Shown here: positions 48,229 to 64,000 of the stretch, in pieces
Numbering within the stretch: position 1 is the first letter of the stretch
Layout of the letters: every line of letters begins with the position of its first letter
Assembly (NCBI GenBank): GCA_029267335.1
Contig: JAJUJC010000006.1
Coordinates: forward strand, 1 to 64,000
Direction: 5' to 3'
Length of the DNA: 64,000 bases
Origin: Intestinibacillus massiliensis
GTDB taxonomy: Bacteria; Bacillota; Clostridia; Oscillospirales; Butyricicoccaceae
Translations under genes and position numbers: made by a program
The notes under the pieces: generated by a model
Told to the model about the DNA's origin: nothing
Databases searched by the model: none
Seen by the model: the letters and a program-made list of their open reading frames with translations, nothing else

Positions 48229-48272
48229 ACAAAAACACAGGGGCTTCGGCAAAAGTACCAAAACCCCTGTGT
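48229..48272 (-). terminator. Terminator of the rubrerythrin gene
   Basis: AAACACAGGGG/CCCCTGTGTTT stem with T-rich DNA on the minus strand side. Confidence 0.75.
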
Positions 48273-56021: not shown

Positions 56022-57731
56022 TCACTCGATATCCTGCAAGGCAGCGTATCCCTGCTCGCCGGTGCGCACCTTGACGACGTTTTCCACATGGAACACGAAG
56101 ATCTTGCCGTCACCGATATGACCGGTATAAAGTACCTGTTTCGCAGTCTCGATAACCAGATCGACCGGAATCGCGGAGACCACGATCTCCATCTTGAGCT
56201 TGGGCAGCAGTGCCATGTCTACCTTCGCGCCGCGGTAATACTCCGGCGCGCCCTTCTGCAAGCCGCAGCCAATCACATTGGAAACCGTCATACCCGCAAT
56301 GCCGATATCGTTCATTGCGTTTTTGAGCTCCTCAAACTTGGACTGCTTCGTGATGATGACCACCTGAGAAAGCGTATGCTCGGAAGCTGTGCCGACCTGT
56401 GCGACCGGTACGGCACGCTCCACATCGACCTCTTGCTCTGCAAGCGCCAGTGCCGCCGCAGTCCCTGCCTTCGTGCCCAGTACGCTCGGTACATCCGCTA
56501 CCGGCATGAAGTCCGCATACGCGGAATCCAAACCATGCTCCGGCTTATCCAGACCCATGATTTCCTCGGCCGGATCGACGCGCAGACCGATTGTGTGCTT
56601 GATGATGACAAAGGTAAGCGTGATCATCACCGCGACCCACGCTGCGACTGCAAGTACGCCGAGGGTCTGGATGAGCAGAAAATGTACGCCGCCGCCGTAA
56701 AACAGACCGTTCTCCGTGGCAAACAGACCGGTCAGGATCGTGCCGCCCGAACCGCACAGGCAATGCACGCCGACCGCGCCGACCGGATCGTCGATCTTGA
56801 GCTTCTGATCGACAAATTCAATGCCGAACACCACGACAAAACCTGCAATGATGCCGATGAATGCCGCACCGACTGGGCTCACCACATCGCACCCTGCCGT
56901 AATCGCCACCAGACCTGCGAGCGAACCGTTCAGTGTCATGGAGACATCGGGCTTTTTATAGCGAATCCAGGTGATGCACAAGACAGTCACAGTCGCAACC
57001 GCCGCCGCGAGGTTCGTTGTCATAAAAATATGCGCAGCGGATTCGATGGCGTCGCCTGTCATGGACACGGTGGAAGCGCCGTTAAACCCAAACCAGCAGA
57101 ACCACAGAATGAAAACGCCGAGTGCGCCGAGCGTCAGAGAGTGTCCGGGGATCGCATTCGCTTTGCCGTCCTTGCCATATTTGCCGATGCGAGGCCCGAG
57201 GATCTTCGCGCCGATGAGCGCGCACAGTCCACCTACAAAGTGCACCGCCGTGGAACCTGCAAAATCGTGGAACCCAAGCTGGCTCAGCCAACCGCCGCCC
57301 CAGATCCAGTGACCGGAGACCGGATAAATAAAGGCGGAAATGACCATCGAGTAAATGCAGTACGCAGAGAACTTTGTGCGTTCTGCCATCGCGCCCGATA
57401 CGATCGTCGCCGCGGTCGCGCAGAACACGGTCTGGAACATGACAAACGCCCACAGCGGCACGCCCGCCGGTAAAATCGCGGAATAATCACCGCGAATGAG
57501 CGGGTCAAACGTACCGAGCAGCGCGGACGAGCCGCCGAACATCACGCCAAAGCCGAGCAGCCAGTAGATCGGCGTGCCCAGGCAAAAATCCATGAGGTTT
57601 TTCATGATGATGTTGCCGGCGTTTTTCGCGCGGGTAAAGCCGGTTTCCACCATTGCAAAGCCCGCCTGCATAAAGAACACCAAAGCTGTGCCTACAAGCA
57701 CCCATATGGTGTTTACCGCAGAATATTCCAT
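56022..57731 (-). CDS. Ammonium transporter with a C-terminal PII domain (Amt-GlnB fusion)
   Basis: 569 aa. Residues about 1-410 are an Amt channel with 11 membrane segments (WVLVGTALVFFMQAGFAMVE at the start; DFAGSTAVHFVGGLCALIGA near 160). Residues about 455-569 are a PII regulator: VVIITKQSKFEELKNAM, the T-loop EYYRGAKVDM with a Tyr, and GDGKIFVFHVE and VKVRTGEQG. Free PII (GlnK) usually blocks Amt; here it is joined to it. The amt start follows GGGGG, and its leader carries the antitermination-like hairpin. Confidence 0.95.
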   Translation of the reverse strand: MEYSAVNTIWVLVGTALVFFMQAGFAMVETGFTRAKNAGNIIMKNLMDFCLGTPIYWLLGFGVMFGGSSALLGTFDPLIRGDYSAILPAGVPLWAFVMFQTVFCATAATIVSGAMAERTKFSAYCIYSMVISAFIYPVSGHWIWGGGWLSQLGFHDFAGSTAVHFVGGLCALIGAKILGPRIGKYGKDGKANAIPGHSLTLGALGVFILWFCWFGFNGASTVSMTGDAIESAAHIFMTTNLAAAVATVTVLCITWIRYKKPDVSMTLNGSLAGLVAITAGCDVVSPVGAAFIGIIAGFVVVFGIEFVDQKLKIDDPVGAVGVHCLCGSGGTILTGLFATENGLFYGGGVHFLLIQTLGVLAVAAWVAVMITLTFVIIKHTIGLRVDPAEEIMGLDKPEHGLDSAYADFMPVADVPSVLGTKAGTAAALALAEQEVDVERAVPVAQVGTASEHTLSQVVIITKQSKFEELKNAMNDIGIAGMTVSNVIGCGLQKGAPEYYRGAKVDMALLPKLKMEIVVSAIPVDLVIETAKQVLYTGHIGDGKIFVFHVENVVKVRTGEQGYAALQDIE

Positions 57732-57761: not shown

Positions 57762-57811
57762 AGTATAAAAAGGCGTGTATGCTCCCTTTTCAGGGAAACA
57801 TACACGCCTTT
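57762..57811 (-). terminator. Intrinsic terminator in the amt leader
   Basis: Minus strand: AAAGGCGTGTATG pairs with CATACACGCCTTT around an inner CCCT-GAAA-AGGG hairpin, then TTTTTATA. The 5' arm begins with the loop of the hairpin at 57800-57817. It ends glnN transcripts or controls read-through into amt. Confidence 0.85.
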
Positions 57812-57817
57812 GTGTAT
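57800..57817 (-). promoter_or_regulatory. Antiterminator-type hairpin, amt leader
   Basis: Minus strand stem ATACAC/GTGTAT, 6 bp, with hexaloop AAAGGC. Loop and 3' arm are also the first bases of the terminator's 5' arm, so only one of the two can form. Confidence 0.6.
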
Positions 57818-57834
57818 CAGGTTGTCAGTGCGAA

Positions 57835-59934
57835 TCAGACGCCGAAGAGCAGCTTGCCATAGGTCGGGAACGGCCAGTACTTCTCCGCGGTCAGCACCTC
57901 GAGTGCATCCGCAACACGGCGCAGCTCGTTCATCGCGGGCAGCACGGTGTCATGATAGTAGCGGGCCAGCTCCGTTGCGTCGCTCAGCTTTGCCGCGCCC
58001 GCGGAAGCTGCTTCAAGAGCACCATCCGCTGCATGCAGTTCGACCGCAAGTGCGGAGATTTTGGAGAGCAGCTCTGCTTCCGCACAATCGGCAATGCCGA
58101 GAGACTTCTTGCCAAGTGTGACCTCGGCCAGTTCCTTGGAGTAGCTCACCACTGCCGGGAAGATCTGCTTGCGGTTCATATCGAGCATGGTGAGCGCTTC
58201 GATGTTCAGGGTCTTGTAGTACTCCTCGAGCAGGATCTCCTCGCGGGAATGCATTTCGCACTCCGTATAAACGCCGTGACGCTGGAACAGCTTGAGATTC
58301 TTCTCGTCTGTGTAATGCGGCAGCGCGTCGGGTGTGGACTTGAGGTTGAGCAGTCCGCGCTTCTCGGCTTCTGCGACCCATGCGTCGTCGTAGCCGTTGC
58401 CGTTGAAGATGATGCGCTTATGCGCAGTGATCTCACGCTTGATGAGGGCGGACAGTGCGTCGTTAAAGTCGGTCGCATCCTCTAGCTCATCGGCAAAGAC
58501 ACGGAGCTCTTCCGCCACCGCGGTGTTGAGCATGATGTTCGTGCATGCGATCGAGAAAGTCGATCCAAGCATACGGAACTCGAACTTGTTGCCCGTAAAC
58601 GCGAACGGCGAGGTACGGTTACGGTCGGAAGTGTCCTTCGGGATCGGAGGCAGAACTGCAGCGCCGCCGCCCATCTTCTCACGCTTGACGTCGATGTAGG
58701 AAGTGCCGTTTTCAATCGAGTCGATGACCGCGCCCAGCTCGTCGCCGACGTACATGGAAACGATCGCCGGAGGTGCTTCGTTCGCGCCCAAACGGTGGTC
58801 GTTGCCCGCGCTCGCGACCGAGATACGCAGCAGATCCTGATACTCGTCGACCGCCTTGACGACCGCGGTCAGGAAGAGCAAGAACTGTGCATTCTCACGC
58901 GGGGAAGTGCCGGGTTCGAGCAGATTTTCGCCCAGATCGGTCGACATCGACCAGTTGTTGTGCTTGCCCGAGCCGTTGACGCCGTCAAACGGCTTCTCGT
59001 GCAACAGGCAAACCAGACCGTGACGACCCGCAACCTTCTTCATCATTTCCATGGTGAGCTGATTGTGATCGGTCGCGATGTTGGTAGTCGTAAAGATCGG
59101 CGCAAGCTCATGCTGTGCCGGTGCGACTTCGTTGTGCTTGGTCTTAGCGAGGATGCCGAGCTTCCACAGTTCCTCATCCAGCTCCTTCATGTACGCGGAA
59201 ACACGAGACTTGATCGTGCCGAAATAATGGTCATCCATCTCCTGACCCTTGGGGCACATCGCACCAAACAGCGTGCGGCCGGTGTACTGAAGATCCTTGC
59301 GCTCGTCATAATACTTCTTGTCGACGAGGAAATACTCCTGCTCAGGGCCGACTGTCGTGTTGACGCGCTTGGCTTCCGTGTTGCCGAACAGCTTGAGGAT
59401 GCGCAGCGCCTGATCGTTGATCGCATCCATCGAACGCAGCAGCGGGGTCTTCTTGTCGAGCACCTCGCCCGAGTAGGACAGAAATGCGGTCGGGATGCAC
59501 AGCGTACCGTCCTTGATGAACGCATAACTCGTGGGATCCCATGCAGTGTAACCGCGTGCTTCAAAGGTTGCACGCAGACCGCCGGACGGGAAAGAGGATG
59601 CGTCAGGCTCGCCCTTGATGAGCTCTTTGCCGGAAAACTCCATGATGACGTTGCCACCCTCGGTCGGAGAGATGAAGGAGTCGTGCTTCTCGGCGGTGAT
59701 GCCGGTCATCGGCTGGAACCAGTGCGTGTAGTGTGTCGCGCCCTTGGACACCGCCCAGTCCTTCATCGCGTTCGCCACGATATTGGCGACGGCCGGATCG
59801 AGCGCCTTGCTCTCCATGATGGTCTTCTTCAGTGCCTTGTAAACGTCCTTGGGAAGACGCTCCTTCATGACATTCTCGTTGAATACCATGCTGCCGAAGA
59901 TTTCCGGAATGCTGCCGTGTGTTAATTCGCTCAT
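57835..59934 (-). CDS. glnN: Glutamine synthetase, type III
   Basis: 699-aa type III (GlnN) glutamine synthetase, the large form of the family. It makes glutamine from glutamate, ammonium and ATP. The N-terminus [16 protein letters not shown] is typical; KHDSFISP and the [14 protein letters not shown] catalytic block (about 315-328) are visible, with [14 protein letters not shown]. It lies upstream of amt on the same strand. Its leader has the same hairpin-terminator arrangement. Confidence 0.97.
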
Positions 59935-59985
59935 TATGACATGCCTCCTAAGAAATTTAGGTTTATCCTATCAAAAGCTCACAAT

Positions 59986-60022
59986 ATAAAAATGGCGCCG
60001 CAGGCTTTCCGCCTACAGCGCC
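59986..60022 (-). terminator. Intrinsic terminator in the glnN leader
   Basis: Minus strand: GGCGC...AGGC pairs with GCCT...GCGCC and is followed by ATTTTTAT. It forms near the very start of the transcript and would stop it before the glnN start. Confidence 0.7.
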
Positions 60023-60030
60023 TTTGCTGT
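60015..60030 (-). promoter_or_regulatory. Antiterminator-type hairpin, glnN leader
   Basis: Minus strand stem ACAGC/GCTGT, hexaloop AAAGGC (A1, G4). The loop and 3' arm overlap the 5' arm of the terminator. Confidence 0.6.
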
Positions 60031-60041
60031 TTACAACATAA

Positions 60042-60070
60042 ATTATAGTATTCAAAAACCGCTTTGTCAA
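60042..60070 (-). promoter_or_regulatory. Promoter of glnN
   Basis: Minus strand TTGACA, exactly 17 bp, TATAAT. Transcription would begin about 6 bp ahead of the antiterminator-type hairpin. Confidence 0.85.
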
Positions 60071-60192
60071 CCCGCAAAATCACGCATTTTACTGCAAAAT
60101 CAATATTTATTGCATTATAGTGCGTTTCTCAAAAAAAGGGCCGCGCTTTCTATGCAAAATGCAAGAATTTTAAAAATCGTTTTTCTGTGCGC

Positions 60193-60221
60193 TTGACCTT
60201 TTATTTTTTTTGCTTTAAAAT
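60193..60221 (+). promoter_or_regulatory. Promoter of the glutamate synthase genes
   Basis: TTGACC, 17 bp, TAAAAT. It is divergent from the glnN promoter; between the two no other feature was found. Confidence 0.75.
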
Positions 60222-60228
60222 AAAAAGC

Positions 60229-60242
60229 GGACAAAGACGTCC
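60229..60242 (+). promoter_or_regulatory. Antiterminator-type hairpin, glutamate synthase leader
   Basis: GGAC/GTCC, 4-bp stem with hexaloop AAAGAC. The loop and 3' arm are the first ten bases of the terminator's 16-bp 5' arm. Confidence 0.6.
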
Positions 60243-60300
60243 ATGCCATAAGGCGCGATGCGGAATTACGCGGCGCCCTGTGGCATGGACGTCTTTTTTA
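60233..60300 (+). terminator. Strong intrinsic terminator in the glutamate synthase leader
   Basis: A 16-bp perfect stem AAAGACGTCCATGCCA/TGGCATGGACGTCTTT, plus an inner GGCGC/GCGCC stem, followed by TTTTTTATTTT. It lies between the promoter and the first gene (start 60403), so it must be bypassed for expression. Confidence 0.85.
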
Positions 60301-60402: not shown

Positions 60403-61497
60403 ATGCTTCTAAAAGAAGGTCAGGTTCGCATCCCCGCGGGGTGCGCAATCTCGGGCATCTTTTCCAAAAGCGGCGCGCGGCGCAGCGGCGAGGACATCAT
60501 CAAATCCATTTCGACGATGCACGACCGCTCAAACGGCTTAGGCGGCGGCTTCGCCGGCTACGGCATCTATCCCGAATACAAGGAATTCTATGCCTTCCAT
60601 GTATTCTATGACAGTCAGCGCGCAAAGGACGACTGCGAAGCCTTTCTGGAGGAGCATTTCGACATTGTGAATCTGTCGAAGATCCCGACCCGCCGGCATC
60701 CGCGCATCACCGACGAGCCGATGATCTGGCGTTACTTCGTGGCCCCGCTGCAGGTCAAGCTGACCGCAAGCCAGCTCGATGAGCGTGAATACGTCGCACG
60801 CAGCGTCATTCGCGTCAACGACCGCATCGACGGCGCGTACATCTTCTCCTCTGGCAAAAACATGGGCGTATTCAAGGCATCCGGCTTCCCCGAGGACGTC
60901 GGTGAATACTACAAGCTCGAGGAATACGAAGCGTACTCGTGGACCTGCCACGGACGCTACCCGACGAACACCCCGGGCTGGTGGGGCGGCGCGCATCCGT
61001 TTGCGCTGCTCGACACGACCGTCGTGCACAACGGCGAAATCTCCTCCTATGACGCGAACCGCCGCTTCATTGAAATGTTCGGCTACAAGTGCAACCTGCT
61101 GACCGACACCGAGGTCATCACCTATATCATCGACTATCTCGGCCGCCGTCAGGGCATGACCTGCGAGGAGATCGCAAGCGTCATCGCCGCGCCGTTCTGG
61201 TCGACGATTGAGCGCAAGCCGCCCGCGGAACGCGAAAAGCTGACCTACCTGCGCAACGCGTTCGCATCCCTGCTCATCACGGGCCCGTTCTCCATTCTCG
61301 TCGGCTTCGAGGGCGGGCTGATGGCGCTCAATGATCGCCTCAAGCTGCGCTCGATGGTCGTCGGCGAAAAGGACGACACGGTATACATCGCATCCGAGGA
61401 ATGTGCGATCCGTGTCATCGAGCCAAATCTCGACAAAATCTGGGCGCCGCGCGGCGGCGAGCCGGTCATCGTTACGCTGAACCAAGGAGGAAACTAA
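60403..61497 (+). CDS. Glutamate synthase glutamine amidotransferase subunit
   Basis: 364 aa. A class II (Ntn) GATase like the N-terminal domain of GltB. The catalytic Cys is Cys14 in GCAISGIF; thirteen residues must be removed to free it, as in GltB precursors. WTCHGRYPTNTPGWWGGAHP near 190 and HNGEISSYDANRR near 213 bind glutamine. It supplies ammonia to the FMN subunit encoded next. It starts after AAGGAGG. Confidence 0.88.
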   Translation: MLLKEGQVRIPAGCAISGIFSKSGARRSGEDIIKSISTMHDRSNGLGGGFAGYGIYPEYKEFYAFHVFYDSQRAKDDCEAFLEEHFDIVNLSKIPTRRHPRITDEPMIWRYFVAPLQVKLTASQLDEREYVARSVIRVNDRIDGAYIFSSGKNMGVFKASGFPEDVGEYYKLEEYEAYSWTCHGRYPTNTPGWWGGAHPFALLDTTVVHNGEISSYDANRRFIEMFGYKCNLLTDTEVITYIIDYLGRRQGMTCEEIASVIAAPFWSTIERKPPAEREKLTYLRNAFASLLITGPFSILVGFEGGLMALNDRLKLRSMVVGEKDDTVYIASEECAIRVIEPNLDKIWAPRGGEPVIVTLNQGGN

Positions 61498-61500
61498 GCC

Positions 61501-63006
61501 ATGGCTATCGACTTTCTCTATCCGGAATATGAGGTCGTCCGCAACTACGACCGCTGTATTTCGTGCCGCGCCTGCGAGCGTCAGTGCGCGAACGAAGTGC
61601 ATTTTTATGACGCCGACTTTCAAAAAATGATGGTCGACGAATCGAAATGTGTCAACTGCCACCGCTGCGTATCGCTGTGTCCGACGCGTGCGCTCAAGAT
61701 CGTCAAGACCGACCACACCTTTAAGGCCAACGCGAACTGGACGGGCAAGGCGATCTCGGAGGTCTACCTGCAGGCAGGCTCGGGCGGCGTGCTGCTGTCC
61801 TCCATGGGCAACCCCGAGCCGTATCCGATCTACTGGGATAAGCTCCTCATCAACGCCTCCCAGGTCACGAACCCACCGATCGACCCGCTGCGCGAGCCGA
61901 TGGAGACGCGCACCTTCCTCGGCAAAAAGCCCAGCCGCATCGAGCGCGACGCACAGGGCAACCTCGTCAACAACCTATCCCCCCAGCTTGAGCTGCGCGT
62001 GCCCATCATGTTCTCCGCGATGAGCTACGGCTCGATCTCCTACAACGCGCATGCGTCGCTTGCGCGCGCGGCAGTCGAGCTTGGCACCTACTATAATACC
62101 GGCGAAGGCGGTCTGCATCAGGACTTTTATCAGTACGGCGCACATACCATCGTGCAGGTCGCGTCGGGACGCTTCGGCGTGCACAAGGACTATCTCGAAG
62201 CGGGTGCTGCGATCGAGATCAAGATGGGTCAGGGCGCAAAGCCCGGCATCGGCGGTCATCTTCCCGGACTCAAGGTCGGCCCCGACATTTCCAAGACCCG
62301 CATGATCCCGGAGGGCACGGACGCAATCTCCCCCGCTCCCCATCACGATATTTACTCGATCGAGGATCTGCGTCAGCTTGTCTACTCGCTCAAGGAAGCG
62401 ACCGACTACAAAAAACCGGTCATGGTCAAGATCGCAGCCGTACATAATGTCGCGGCGATCGCATCGGGTGTTGCGCGCTCGGGTGCGGACGTCATCTGCA
62501 TCGACGGCTATCGCGGCGGCACGGGCGCTGCACCGACCCGCATCCGAGACAACGTCGGCATCCCGATCGAGCTTGCTCTCGCAGCGGTCGACCAGCGCCT
62601 GCGCGACGAGGGCATCCGCGACCAGGTATCGGTGGTCGTGGGCGGTTCGATCCGCAACTCCGCCGATCTGCTCAAGGCGATCGCGCTCGGCGCCGATGCG
62701 TGCTATATCGCGACCTCTGCGTTGCTCGCGCTCGGCTGTCATCTGTGCCGTACCTGCCAAACCGGTAAGTGCAACTGGGGCATTGCGACCCAGCGCCCCG
62801 ACCTCGTCAAGCGTCTGAACCCCGACATCGGCTCGCAGCGTCTGGTCAATCTGGTCACCGCATGGGATCACGAGCTCAAGGAAATGATGGGTGGCATGGG
62901 CATCAACTCGATTGAAGCGCTGCGCGGCAACCGCCTGATGCTGCGTGGATTGGGGCTGACCCAAAAGGAACTGGACATCCTCGGCATCATGCACGCGGGT
63001 GAATAA
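61501..63006 (+). CDS. Glutamate synthase FMN-binding subunit with ferredoxin domain
   Basis: 501 aa. Residues 10-75 hold two 4Fe-4S motifs (CISCRACERQC and CVNCHRCVSLC). The rest is the FMN-binding barrel of glutamate synthase: SAMSYGSISYNAHASLARA near 166, GQGAKPGIGGHLPG near 245, YRGGTGAAPTR near 340 and the cluster motif CHLCRTCQTGKCNWG near 418. It makes glutamate from 2-oxoglutarate. The ATG follows GGAGGAAAC 3 bp past the previous stop. Confidence 0.9.
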   Translation: MAIDFLYPEYEVVRNYDRCISCRACERQCANEVHFYDADFQKMMVDESKCVNCHRCVSLCPTRALKIVKTDHTFKANANWTGKAISEVYLQAGSGGVLLSSMGNPEPYPIYWDKLLINASQVTNPPIDPLREPMETRTFLGKKPSRIERDAQGNLVNNLSPQLELRVPIMFSAMSYGSISYNAHASLARAAVELGTYYNTGEGGLHQDFYQYGAHTIVQVASGRFGVHKDYLEAGAAIEIKMGQGAKPGIGGHLPGLKVGPDISKTRMIPEGTDAISPAPHHDIYSIEDLRQLVYSLKEATDYKKPVMVKIAAVHNVAAIASGVARSGADVICIDGYRGGTGAAPTRIRDNVGIPIELALAAVDQRLRDEGIRDQVSVVVGGSIRNSADLLKAIALGADACYIATSALLALGCHLCRTCQTGKCNWGIATQRPDLVKRLNPDIGSQRLVNLVTAWDHELKEMMGGMGINSIEALRGNRLMLRGLGLTQKELDILGIMHAGE

Positions 63007-63054: not shown

Positions 63055-63483
63055 ATGAAACGAGTTTATGTCAACGAGAAATGGTGTCTCGGTTGTCATC
63101 TCTGCGAATATTATTGCGCATTCGCGAACTCCGGCAAGAGCAGCATGGCGAAAGCGCTCAAAGATCATCACATCGCGCCGCGCATCCAGATTGAGGAGCG
63201 CAACAACATCTCCTTCGCGGTGTCCTGCCGCCATTGTGAAGAACCGCTGTGCGTCAAGGGCTGCATCTCCGGCGCGCTGACCCGTGTAGACGGCGTCATC
63301 GAGATCGACACCGACAAGTGCGTCGGCTGCTACACCTGTATCCTGTCCTGCCCCTACGGCGCGCTCAGTCATGACGATCATGGCGCGATGCAGAAATGCG
63401 AACTGTGTGTCAAGAACGCGGACGGCACGCCCCAGTGCGTACAGGGCTGCCCCAACAAAGCGATCGTATTTGAAGAGAGGTGA
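63055..63483 (+). CDS. Four-cluster ferredoxin subunit
   Basis: 142 aa. Four cysteine groups: CLGCHLCEYYC, CRHCEEPLCVKGC, CVGCYTCILSC and CELCVKN...CVQGC, a polyferredoxin of the DMSO reductase/oxidoreductase B-type. It should pass electrons from the NAD(P)H-flavin subunit next to it to glutamate synthase. The gap before it is 48 bases and contains a TATACT that may be chance. Confidence 0.88.
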   Translation: MKRVYVNEKWCLGCHLCEYYCAFANSGKSSMAKALKDHHIAPRIQIEERNNISFAVSCRHCEEPLCVKGCISGALTRVDGVIEIDTDKCVGCYTCILSCPYGALSHDDHGAMQKCELCVKNADGTPQCVQGCPNKAIVFEER

Positions 63484-63491
63484 GCACGAAG

Positions 63492-64000
63492 ATGTTAAAC
63501 AGCAACACGCATTACGTCATCCTCGGCAACGGCACGGCAGCGGTCGGCGTCATTGAGGGCATCCGCGAAGTCGACAAGACCGGACGCATTACTGTCATTT
63601 CGTCCGAACCCTATCGCGTTTACGGCCGTCCGCTCATCTCCTATCTGCTGCTCGGCAGAACAACCGAGGAAAAGATGGTGCAATACCGTCCCAAGAGCTT
63701 CTACGAGGACAATGAGGTCACCCTGATGGCGGGCTACACCGTCACCGGCATCGACGCATTCACAAAGACGCTCAATCTGGACGACGGGAGCACAGTCGGC
63801 TACGACAAGCTGTGTTTCTGCACCGGCTCTCGTCCGTTCGTCCCCCCGATGGAGGGATTGGACGCCGTCACGCACAAAACGAGCTTTATGACGCTCGACG
63901 ATGCTAAGCGCCTGTCCGACCTGCTCGGAGAGGACGGTACGAAGGACGTACTCATCGTGGGCGCGGGTCTGATCGGTCTCAAGTGCGCGGAGGGCATTTT
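63492..64000 (+). CDS. NAD(P)/FAD-dependent oxidoreductase, 3' end cut by the window
   Basis: Partial, 169 codons so far, open to the right edge. MLNSNTHYVILGNGTAAVGV has the first Rossmann motif (GxGxxAxxG); RVYGRPLISYLLLG near 39 and LIVGAGLIGLKCAEGI near the end are the family's second dinucleotide-binding motif. It resembles the small FAD subunits that accept NAD(P)H for glutamate synthase. The ATG follows AGAGGTG, 8 bp past the previous stop. Confidence 0.82.
   Translation, partial: MLNSNTHYVILGNGTAAVGVIEGIREVDKTGRITVISSEPYRVYGRPLISYLLLGRTTEEKMVQYRPKSFYEDNEVTLMAGYTVTGIDAFTKTLNLDDGSTVGYDKLCFCTGSRPFVPPMEGLDAVTHKTSFMTLDDAKRLSDLLGEDGTKDVLIVGAGLIGLKCAEGI

Follow-up and report, generated by a model that had tools for sequence, protein, structure and literature searches.

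Three predicted hairpin/terminator switches at a nitrogen-assimilation locus

A stretch of 64,000 nucleotides (nt) of Intestinibacillus massiliensis DNA (assembly GCA_029267335.1, contig JAJUJC010000006.1), hereafter the window, was analyzed. It corresponds to C8:1-64000 of the 2.2-Mb genome, and window and contig coordinates are identical. It carries the genes for an ammonium transporter (amt) and a type III glutamine synthetase (glnN) and, on the opposite strand, the glutamate synthase run glx (Table 1). A preliminary description had reported a short stem with a six-base loop in the leader of each and had attributed control of the whole ammonium route to one ANTAR-type antiterminator. The presence of such a protein, NitR, in the genome and the conservation of the hairpin support this proposal, and the three leaders are considered here, with a probability of roughly 0.82, to be targets of NitR acting through a single hexaloop; NitR would bind them and bring about read-through in response to a nitrogen signal.

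Direct reading of the sequence confirmed the hexaloops and their stems in the amt, glnN and glx leaders, as well as A at loop position 1 (A1) and G at position 4 (G4) in all three. The loop and 3' arm had also been said to open the 5' arm of an intrinsic terminator. This was correct for amt and glx; in glnN, the terminator stem starts at loop G4 and leaves the three A's outside. Similarly, the hairpin and terminator assigned to an amt leader are present, but they lie in the glnN–amt gap, the hairpin beginning 17 nt past the glnN stop codon; a promoter on a par with those of glnN and glx was not found there.

In folding calculations, the hairpin and the terminator proved mutually exclusive in all three leaders, as had been expected, and each leader stretch (−29.5 kcal/mol for glnN as a whole; amt and glx in Table 1) was more stable than 200/200 dinucleotide shuffles. 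The full terminator was 15–18 kcal/mol more stable than the hairpin combined with the remainder of the terminator. When folding of the growing RNA was followed in 3-nt steps, the hairpin was displaced only at 42 of 51 nt for amt, 34 of 45 nt for glnN, and 62 of 71 nt for glx. The terminator thus outcompetes the unaided hairpin, yet the hairpin persists in the growing RNA, which suggests termination by default together with an interval in which a bound protein could keep it in place.

Both strands of the window were scanned for a hexaloop of any sequence on a stem of at least 4 base pairs (bp), overlapping the 5' arm of a T-tailed stem with a score of at least 18. Four places were obtained, namely amt, glnN, glx, and position 48270 on the minus strand, while 20 block-shuffled windows contained no hexaloop/terminator overlap of the form A..G... 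At the fourth place, the hairpin AAAC-ACAGGG-GTTT overlaps a terminator about 140 nt 5' of an MprF-like synthase gene.

Table 1. Genes, promoter boxes, hairpins and terminators of the locus, in contig coordinates
Feature	Position	Strand	Description and basis
amt	56022..57731	-	Ammonium transporter with C-terminal PII domain, 569 amino acids; Pfam PF00909, PF00543
amt intrinsic terminator	57767..57811	-	5' arm common to hairpin loop and 3' arm; fold -30.4 kcal/mol, z -9.4
amt hexaloop hairpin (putative antiterminator)	57800..57817	-	ATACAC-AAAGGC-GTGTAT, glnN-amt gap; -4.5 kcal/mol
glnN	57835..59934	-	Type III glutamine synthetase, 699 amino acids; Pfam GSIII_N, Gln-synt_C-ter
glnN leader intrinsic terminator	59988..60022	-	-26.4 kcal/mol; z (leader fold) -5.8
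glnN hexaloop hairpin	60015..60030	-	ACAGC-AAAGGC-GCTGT; -5.4 kcal/mol
glnN -10 box	60042..60047	-	TATAAT, 11 nt 5' of hairpin
glnN -35 box	60065..60070	-	TTGACA, 17-bp spacer
glx -35 box	60193..60198	+	TTGACC, 17-bp spacer
glx -10 box	60216..60221	+	TAAAAT, 7 nt 5' of hairpin
glx (glutamate synthase) hexaloop hairpin	60229..60242	+	GGAC-AAAGAC-GTCC; -4.0 kcal/mol
glx leader intrinsic terminator	60233..60299	+	Fold -47.7 kcal/mol, z -8.0
glx gene 1	60403..61497	+	Class II glutamine amidotransferase domain protein; Pfam GATase_2
glx gene 2	61501..63006	+	Flavin mononucleotide (FMN) glutamate synthase core; Pfam Glu_synthase
glx gene 3	63055..63483	+	4Fe-4S ferredoxin-like; open reading frame, Cys motifs by eye
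glx gene 4	63480..64000	+	Oxidoreductase-like, runs past window end; open reading frame
GXGXG-type protein	64748-65470		glx run, beyond window
glnA-type synthetase	65538-66866		glx run, beyond window; Pfam
nitR	66903-67475		Receiver-ANTAR gene, 190 amino acids, end of glx run; Pfam ANTAR + receiver

Conservation of the hairpin and its one-hairpin layout

The family was placed near Butyricicoccus, Agathobaculum, and Intestinibacillus in the named collection; these are gut butyrate producers. Among 87 family genomes, 75 matched NitR at an expectation value (E) of 0.001 or below, many through the receiver part only, and the 52 with E < 1e-20 were taken as NitR-positive. An ANTAR domain was present in 52/87 genomes, many of them with only one.

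Leaders were counted only for matches starting within 20 amino acids of the N-terminus and having at least 60 nt upstream, and distant glnN homologues were judged from the fetched loci instead. The core hairpin, defined as C-AANGRY-G with at least 3 bp, was present in NitR-positive genomes in 43/44 glx, 31/32 amt, and 42/52 glnN leaders, with shuffles leading to expected values of 0.44, 0.42, and 0.68, respectively. Loss of the hairpin in close relatives had been named as a refutation of the proposal; it was kept in nearly all leaders counted in these genomes.

The single amt miss (genome G003) was without a leader. Nine of the ten glnN misses were second copies in genomes where the glnN linked to glx or amt does carry the hairpin, and the tenth comes from a genome (G031) with a second fragment, the leader of which was outside the data set. 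In two second copies (locus L157 of G001 and locus L164 of G003), the promoter and terminator were kept with a loop of 7 or 5 nt, which looks like a departure of the additional gene from the regulon.

Of 21 glnN leaders from genomes lacking the main NitR type, none had a terminator overlapped by a hexaloop (0/3 and, among fetched loci, 0/18). A weak core hairpin occurred somewhere in 6 of those 18 loci, and one of the 18 comes from a genome (G078) that encodes a NitR of 43% identity at another site; the 9 kb around that gene contain two promoter-hexaloop-terminator units. In G033 (88% complete, no ANTAR match), the glnN leader keeps TTGACA-17-TATAAT and the terminator, and the hexaloop is now a GGC triloop.

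When the C-loop-G core was chosen by sequence and place only, it was present in 42/55 glnN, 43/45 glx, and 31/32 amt leaders. The next three flanking pairs formed in 42/42 glnN and 43/43 glx leaders and in 31, 31, and 30 of 31 amt leaders, compared with 5 to 32 for slid partners; this core superseded an earlier count in which the glx loop was located by the first pattern match (28–32/44 paired). The stem was near-constant within one gene, whereas between genes the arms differed and yet matched (GGAC, ATGAAC, ACAGC, ATACAC, CGCAC, TGAAC).

In an alignment of 129 distinct hairpins, three of the four inner pairs changed on both sides and 99.8% of cells paired, counts that lean towards structure as the set came from a scanner demanding A1/G4 and at least 4 bp (for lrp rows, a sequence pattern). 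The covariation score was 0.784 compared to 0.218 after shuffling, although shuffles did reach the same number of changing pairs. One hit in an apparent tRNA region (loop ATTGTT) and the duplicate lrp locus L333 were left out of this alignment. A1, A2, G4, and the C–G closing pair were invariant in the set, itself selected for A1/G4. The covariation that had been suggested as a check of the proposal was found, as matched stem changes with a score above shuffled.

The same data bear on the explanation that these are ordinary terminators only, the hairpin being a by-product of bidirectional terminators in which an A-tract followed by GGC mimics AAAGGC. In its favor, the loop A's of amt and glx are paired with the terminator on its U-tract side, and the amt terminator could simply end glnN transcripts. 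In glnN, however, the A's lie outside the terminator stem, and yet the AA.G core was present in 42/42 linked glnN leaders, with one of 45 glx leaders departing from it. Moreover, the 5' arm matches even when no stem is demanded, the two extra glnN copies keep the terminator and not the hexaloop, and terminators directly behind promoters would silence their genes unless relieved. On the position of the glnN A's and the matching of the 5' arm, this explanation was rejected, and it is regarded as highly improbable.

Promoters were scored as matches out of 12 to the sigma-70 consensus TTGACA/TATAAT. In the glnN class (44 scanner-found leaders), 42 scored 12 and 2 scored 11; in the glx class (40 leaders, classed by stem sequence), 38 scored 10 and 2 scored 11; amt-class scores were 6–8 in 32/35 leaders and 9–10 in 3/35. 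The distance from the −10 box to the stem was 11–12 nt in the glnN class and 4–11 nt in the glx class, the exception being the G038 glx leader (outside the 40-leader set), with the stem about 28 nt and the loop 33 nt past the −10 box. With a transcription start expected about 7 nt past the −10 box, no space is left in glnN and glx for an upstream hairpin of the P1 kind.

That only one hairpin per leader was visible had been remarked on as odd; this holds throughout the family and in other Clostridia, and the tandem arrangement of P1 and P2 with a short linker was not found in these leaders. The one-hairpin layout is the new part with respect to the known dual ANTAR targets. A second A..G.. hexaloop of at least 4 bp within 70 nt upstream was found in 2/45 glx, 0/42 glnN, and 1/31 amt leaders (expected 0.9, 1.0, and 0.6), in a search blind to a 3-bp P1 in amt, and an upstream P1 was rejected as not enriched over expectation. 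Downstream, further A..G.. hexaloops were present in 6/45 glx, 0/42 glnN, and 2/31 amt leaders, compared with 2.3, 0.8, and 0.6 expected.

It is considered unlikely that the switch is a dual-hexaloop one after all, with the second hairpin far upstream (behind an unseen promoter), downstream, or in trans. According to passages of PMC8934654, ANTAR proteins function as dimers, and antitermination by EutV in vivo depends on two hexaloops (the latter also in passages of PMC3369931). The authors of PMC8934654 discuss trans binding as well, and the downstream excess in glx points the same way. Against this stand the −10 boxes close to the stem, the lack of an upstream excess, and the downstream counts in glnN and amt. 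In addition, tandem hexaloops do show in the same genome, beside eutVW, where an Fe-alcohol dehydrogenase gene is preceded by AACGGG and AATGGA in an arrangement like that of dual ANTAR targets (C1 near 341236; minus strand of locus L005, about 8237 by plus-strand numbering). There, the second hairpin caps a longer T-tailed stem; the overlap scanner was silent at the eut loci, and the pair was found by a tandem-hexaloop search.

Five of the six downstream glx hexaloops belong to one genus, g5 (L061, L063, L065, L066, L127), where they lie 54–71 nt past the switch hairpin, after the terminator, on stems that vary yet match (TTTCAGC/GCTGAAA, TCCAGC/GCTGGA, CCGGGC/GCCCGG). Two hexaloop/terminator units in series were seen in the glnN–amt gap of G017 (L095, 3629 and 3740) and in the glx leader of G003 (L222, about 1434 and about 1508; the second read by eye).

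Outside the family, 47 of 80 NitR loci were used, the other 33 being judged to come from family genomes already counted. An AA.G hexaloop overlapping a terminator was present in 26/47 loci, and a C-closed AA.G hexaloop abutting a promoter was recognized by reading in 29/47; with any A..G.. loop the number was 33/47, compared with 9/47 after one shuffle each. Carriers of this layout include Clostridium methylpentosum, Acetanaerobacterium elongatum, Anaeromassilibacillus senegalensis, and Intestinibacter bartlettii. Upstream, A..G.. hairpins were encountered in two of these loci (L311, L312), and both overlap the −35 box.

NitR and further leaders with the hexaloop

The preliminary description had seen no ANTAR gene in the window, and there is none; the nearest is nitR, 2.9 kb past the window end beside the glnA-type gene. 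In the whole genome, Pfam ANTAR (PF03861) gave three matches, one at C8:67299-67457 in the glx operon and the others in two EutV-EutW-like pairs on contig C1. A genome lacking any ANTAR protein had also been named as a refutation and was not what was encountered. The ANTAR domain of NitR scored 67.5 bits against a curated cut-off of 27.3, and its receiver domain was also above the Pfam cut-off. Gene order and spacing suggest that the glx run, including gene 4, presumably a pyridine-nucleotide/flavin adenine dinucleotide oxidoreductase-like protein, would be read through nitR as one transcript. An open reading frame with synthetase motifs lies directly 5' of nitR in 27/29 loci examined, this genome included (a 30th locus escaped the search pattern). 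The name NitR is borrowed, by analogy, from the clostridial protein.

By sequence, the solved relatives of NitR are 1s8n (a putative antiterminator), AmiR (1qo0), and EutV (6wsh), and NitR aligns with the latter two across the ANTAR domain. With the residue numbering offset worked out in this analysis, NitR keeps four of the ten EutV contacts named in passages of PMC8934654 (Met172, Glu160, Lys149, Arg175) and has Arg in place of Lys143 and Lys147.

The phospho-acceptor Asp of the receiver, by which a response regulator is recognized, is replaced by Asn in 24/24 aligned NitR sequences, while both EutV-type proteins of the same genome keep it. The acidic pair of the receiver is also absent from the NitR rows compared with EutV-type proteins, and no kinase was recognized by eye among the open reading frames around nitR. 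Because NitR lacks this Asp, its signal probably arrives through a partner protein, as is likely by analogy with AmiC-AmiR and NasS-NasT, in which, according to passages of PMC3795266 and PMC3369936, the ANTAR protein is held by a co-encoded ligand-binding partner; AmiR has a non-phosphorylated pseudo-receiver. In contrast to those systems, the neighbor of NitR is a glutamine synthetase and not a periplasmic-type binding protein, and an interaction is only proposed. This synthetase would be the leading candidate for the partner. Tentatively, and with more doubt than confidence, it can be put forward that a single hexaloop, located at the very 5' end of the RNA, suffices for ANTAR antitermination and that NitR is independent of phosphorylation, being gated by association with the adjacent glutamine synthetase.

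Further targets were sought with two covariance models, R1 in 14 genomes (57 matches listed, 30 of them made into loci and scanned) and R2 in 4. In the I. massiliensis genome, they revealed a hairpin with terminator before an Lrp/AsnC gene (C4:44764). Promoter, hexaloop, and terminator were present before this gene in 12/12 NitR-positive genomes having it (E ≤ 1e-30), with loops AAAGGA, AAAGGC, AACGGA, or AAGGGA; the promoters and terminators of this set were read by eye. In two ANTAR-less genomes with a 50–52% identical Lrp homologue, no such unit was found before it.

In four genomes of genus g3, nitR lies apart from glx, and a promoter-hexaloop-terminator unit occurs about 1.5 kb 5' of it in 4/4. 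The gene in between is of the glnA type in G027 and, as the spacing suggests, probably so in the other three.

Apart from glnN, glx, amt, lrp, and the glnA-nitR leader, covariance matches with a terminator lay at hydG-hydF in the I. massiliensis genome, at a LuxR-like gene in G043, and at purA in G052; the remaining scanned covariance loci had no hairpin with terminator. The first, at C1:584750-584771 on the minus strand (L189 1501-1522), is CGCAC-AAGGGC-GTGCG overlapping a terminator, and it lies between a gene taken to be hydG-like and hydF (Pfam); it may be a chance occurrence. In G043 (L226 near 1509, minus strand), a promoter, an AAAGGC hexaloop, and a terminator precede a regulator gene that looks LuxR-type by sequence reading.

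The purA case raises the question of whether the reader of the hairpin is a different RNA-binding protein, or a metabolite, with NitR merely accompanying nitrogen genes. Two genomes of genus g6 (G052 and G053, 98–99% complete) carry promoter, hexaloop, and terminator before purA (L366, L367; ATGAAC-AAAGGC-GTTCAT, about 100 nt 5' of the start codon) without an ANTAR match at E ≤ 0.001, and a divergent ANTAR gene was absent from a 19-kb stretch around purA in each. The switch was not seen in 28 other purA loci scanned. As the purA leaders show, the hairpin is not confined to genomes with a detectable ANTAR gene. Similarly, in G082 (94% complete, fragmented), the glx hairpin is present and NitR was not found; both cases may reflect missed ANTAR genes or another reader of the hairpin.

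Such a reader is nevertheless regarded as distinctly unlikely. Published work gives a loop with A1 and G4 as the signature of ANTAR targets (passages of PMC3369931 and PMC8934654). Within the family, the hairpin goes together with NitR, and G033, in which an ANTAR gene was not found, has lost it; nitR itself follows a leader of this type, either as part of the glx run or as a separate unit, in 4/4 cases examined. As to a metabolite, Rfam returned only tRNAs at gathering score for the window and the leaders, with weak matches below that score and none reaching it in the leaders, and the conserved part appears too small for an aptamer.

Besides the purA leaders and G082, several results weigh against NitR as the reader of a single hexaloop. 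NitR differs from EutV at Arg142 (Ile), Tyr164 (His, 24/24), Asn173, and Arg177 of the contacts in the passages of PMC8934654. In the alignment, AmiR also has His at the Tyr164 position. In 14/47 NitR loci outside the family, several of them on short contigs, no promoter-abutting hexaloop was found. The single glx miss, G014, which is also the only departure among 45 glx leaders without selection for A1/G4, has the loop GATGGC, with A1 changed to G. Covariance matches were weak on their own (E 0.009–0.15 for four targets), and 6/11 (R1) and 7/12 (R2) own-genome matches lacked a terminator. To these are added the two-hexaloop requirement of EutV in vivo, mentioned above, and one study in which two stem-loops were bound better than one (passages of PMC8934654 and PMC3369931).

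Relation to known ANTAR systems and implications

Under control by NitR, the polymerase would start a few bases 5' of the hairpin at glnN and glx, or arrive from glnN at amt, and the hexaloop hairpin would form first. Unaided, it would be invaded by the terminator, and transcription would stop by default. When nitrogen is short, NitR would bind and hold the single hexaloop with its conserved A1, A2, G4, and C–G closing pair; the held hairpin would leave only the inner terminator stem, away from the U-tract, and the polymerase would read through.

In their general design, these leaders resemble the dual ANTAR-target RNAs (Enterococcus faecalis eutP/eutG/eutS/eutA; nasF; amiE) in the A1/G4 hexaloop on a short stem, in the overlap of loop and 3' arm with the terminator 5' arm, in the association with nitrogen genes, and in the presence of an ANTAR protein in the genome. 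In contrast to them, one hairpin is present here, equivalent to P2, P1 was not found, and the hairpin of glnN, glx, and lrp lies almost at the predicted transcription start. EutV-EutW share the receiver-ANTAR architecture with NitR, and the genome holds two such pairs; the differences are the Asp of the EutV type as against the Asn of NitR, and no kinase recognized near nitR.

The dual-hairpin model of 2012 predicted, according to passages of PMC3369931, ANTAR regulons over nitrogen genes including those of ammonium transporters and of glutamate and glutamine synthases. In passages of PMC8934654, the minimal EutV binding site was redefined as one hexaloop, two being kept as obligatory for antitermination; in surface plasmon resonance, EutV binding to isolated P1 and P2 hairpins was roughly equal to its binding to the pair. 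For NitR of Clostridium saccharobutylicum, antitermination is described as inducing glutamine synthetase (GS)/glutamate synthase (GOGAT) genes under nitrogen limitation (in part of a review, PMC6316151), and such antitermination by clostridial NitR is also reported in passages of PMC4676874. In C. saccharobutylicum and C. acetobutylicum, as here, an ANTAR protein is tied to glutamine synthetase and glutamate synthase genes; the present analysis adds a defined, single target RNA that precedes glnN, amt-PII, and an Lrp gene as well.

No description of a regulon with single promoter-abutting hexaloops was found in the open-access literature, a search that left most subscription papers uncovered, including the primary one on C. 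saccharobutylicum NitR. What is new, as far as this search shows, is not the class of mechanism, which is known, but the single promoter-abutting hexaloop together with the regulon and its breadth.

How far single hexaloops matter was left open in passages of PMC8934654, and the present leaders make the question testable with a minimal RNA of about 14–18 nt. Such targets would probably escape a covariance model that demands the dual motif. The layout belongs to a conserved regulon in many Clostridia, named gut species included, in which the putative antiterminator lies so near the promoter that no second hexaloop fits before it. For Agathobaculum, Butyricicoccus, and Intestinibacillus, a nitrogen regulon is thereby defined that comprises GOGAT-GS-NitR, GlnN, and Amt-PII, and in some genomes the Lrp gene as well. 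If gating of NitR by the adjacent synthetase were true, a glutamine-making enzyme would be the nitrogen sensor of an RNA switch.

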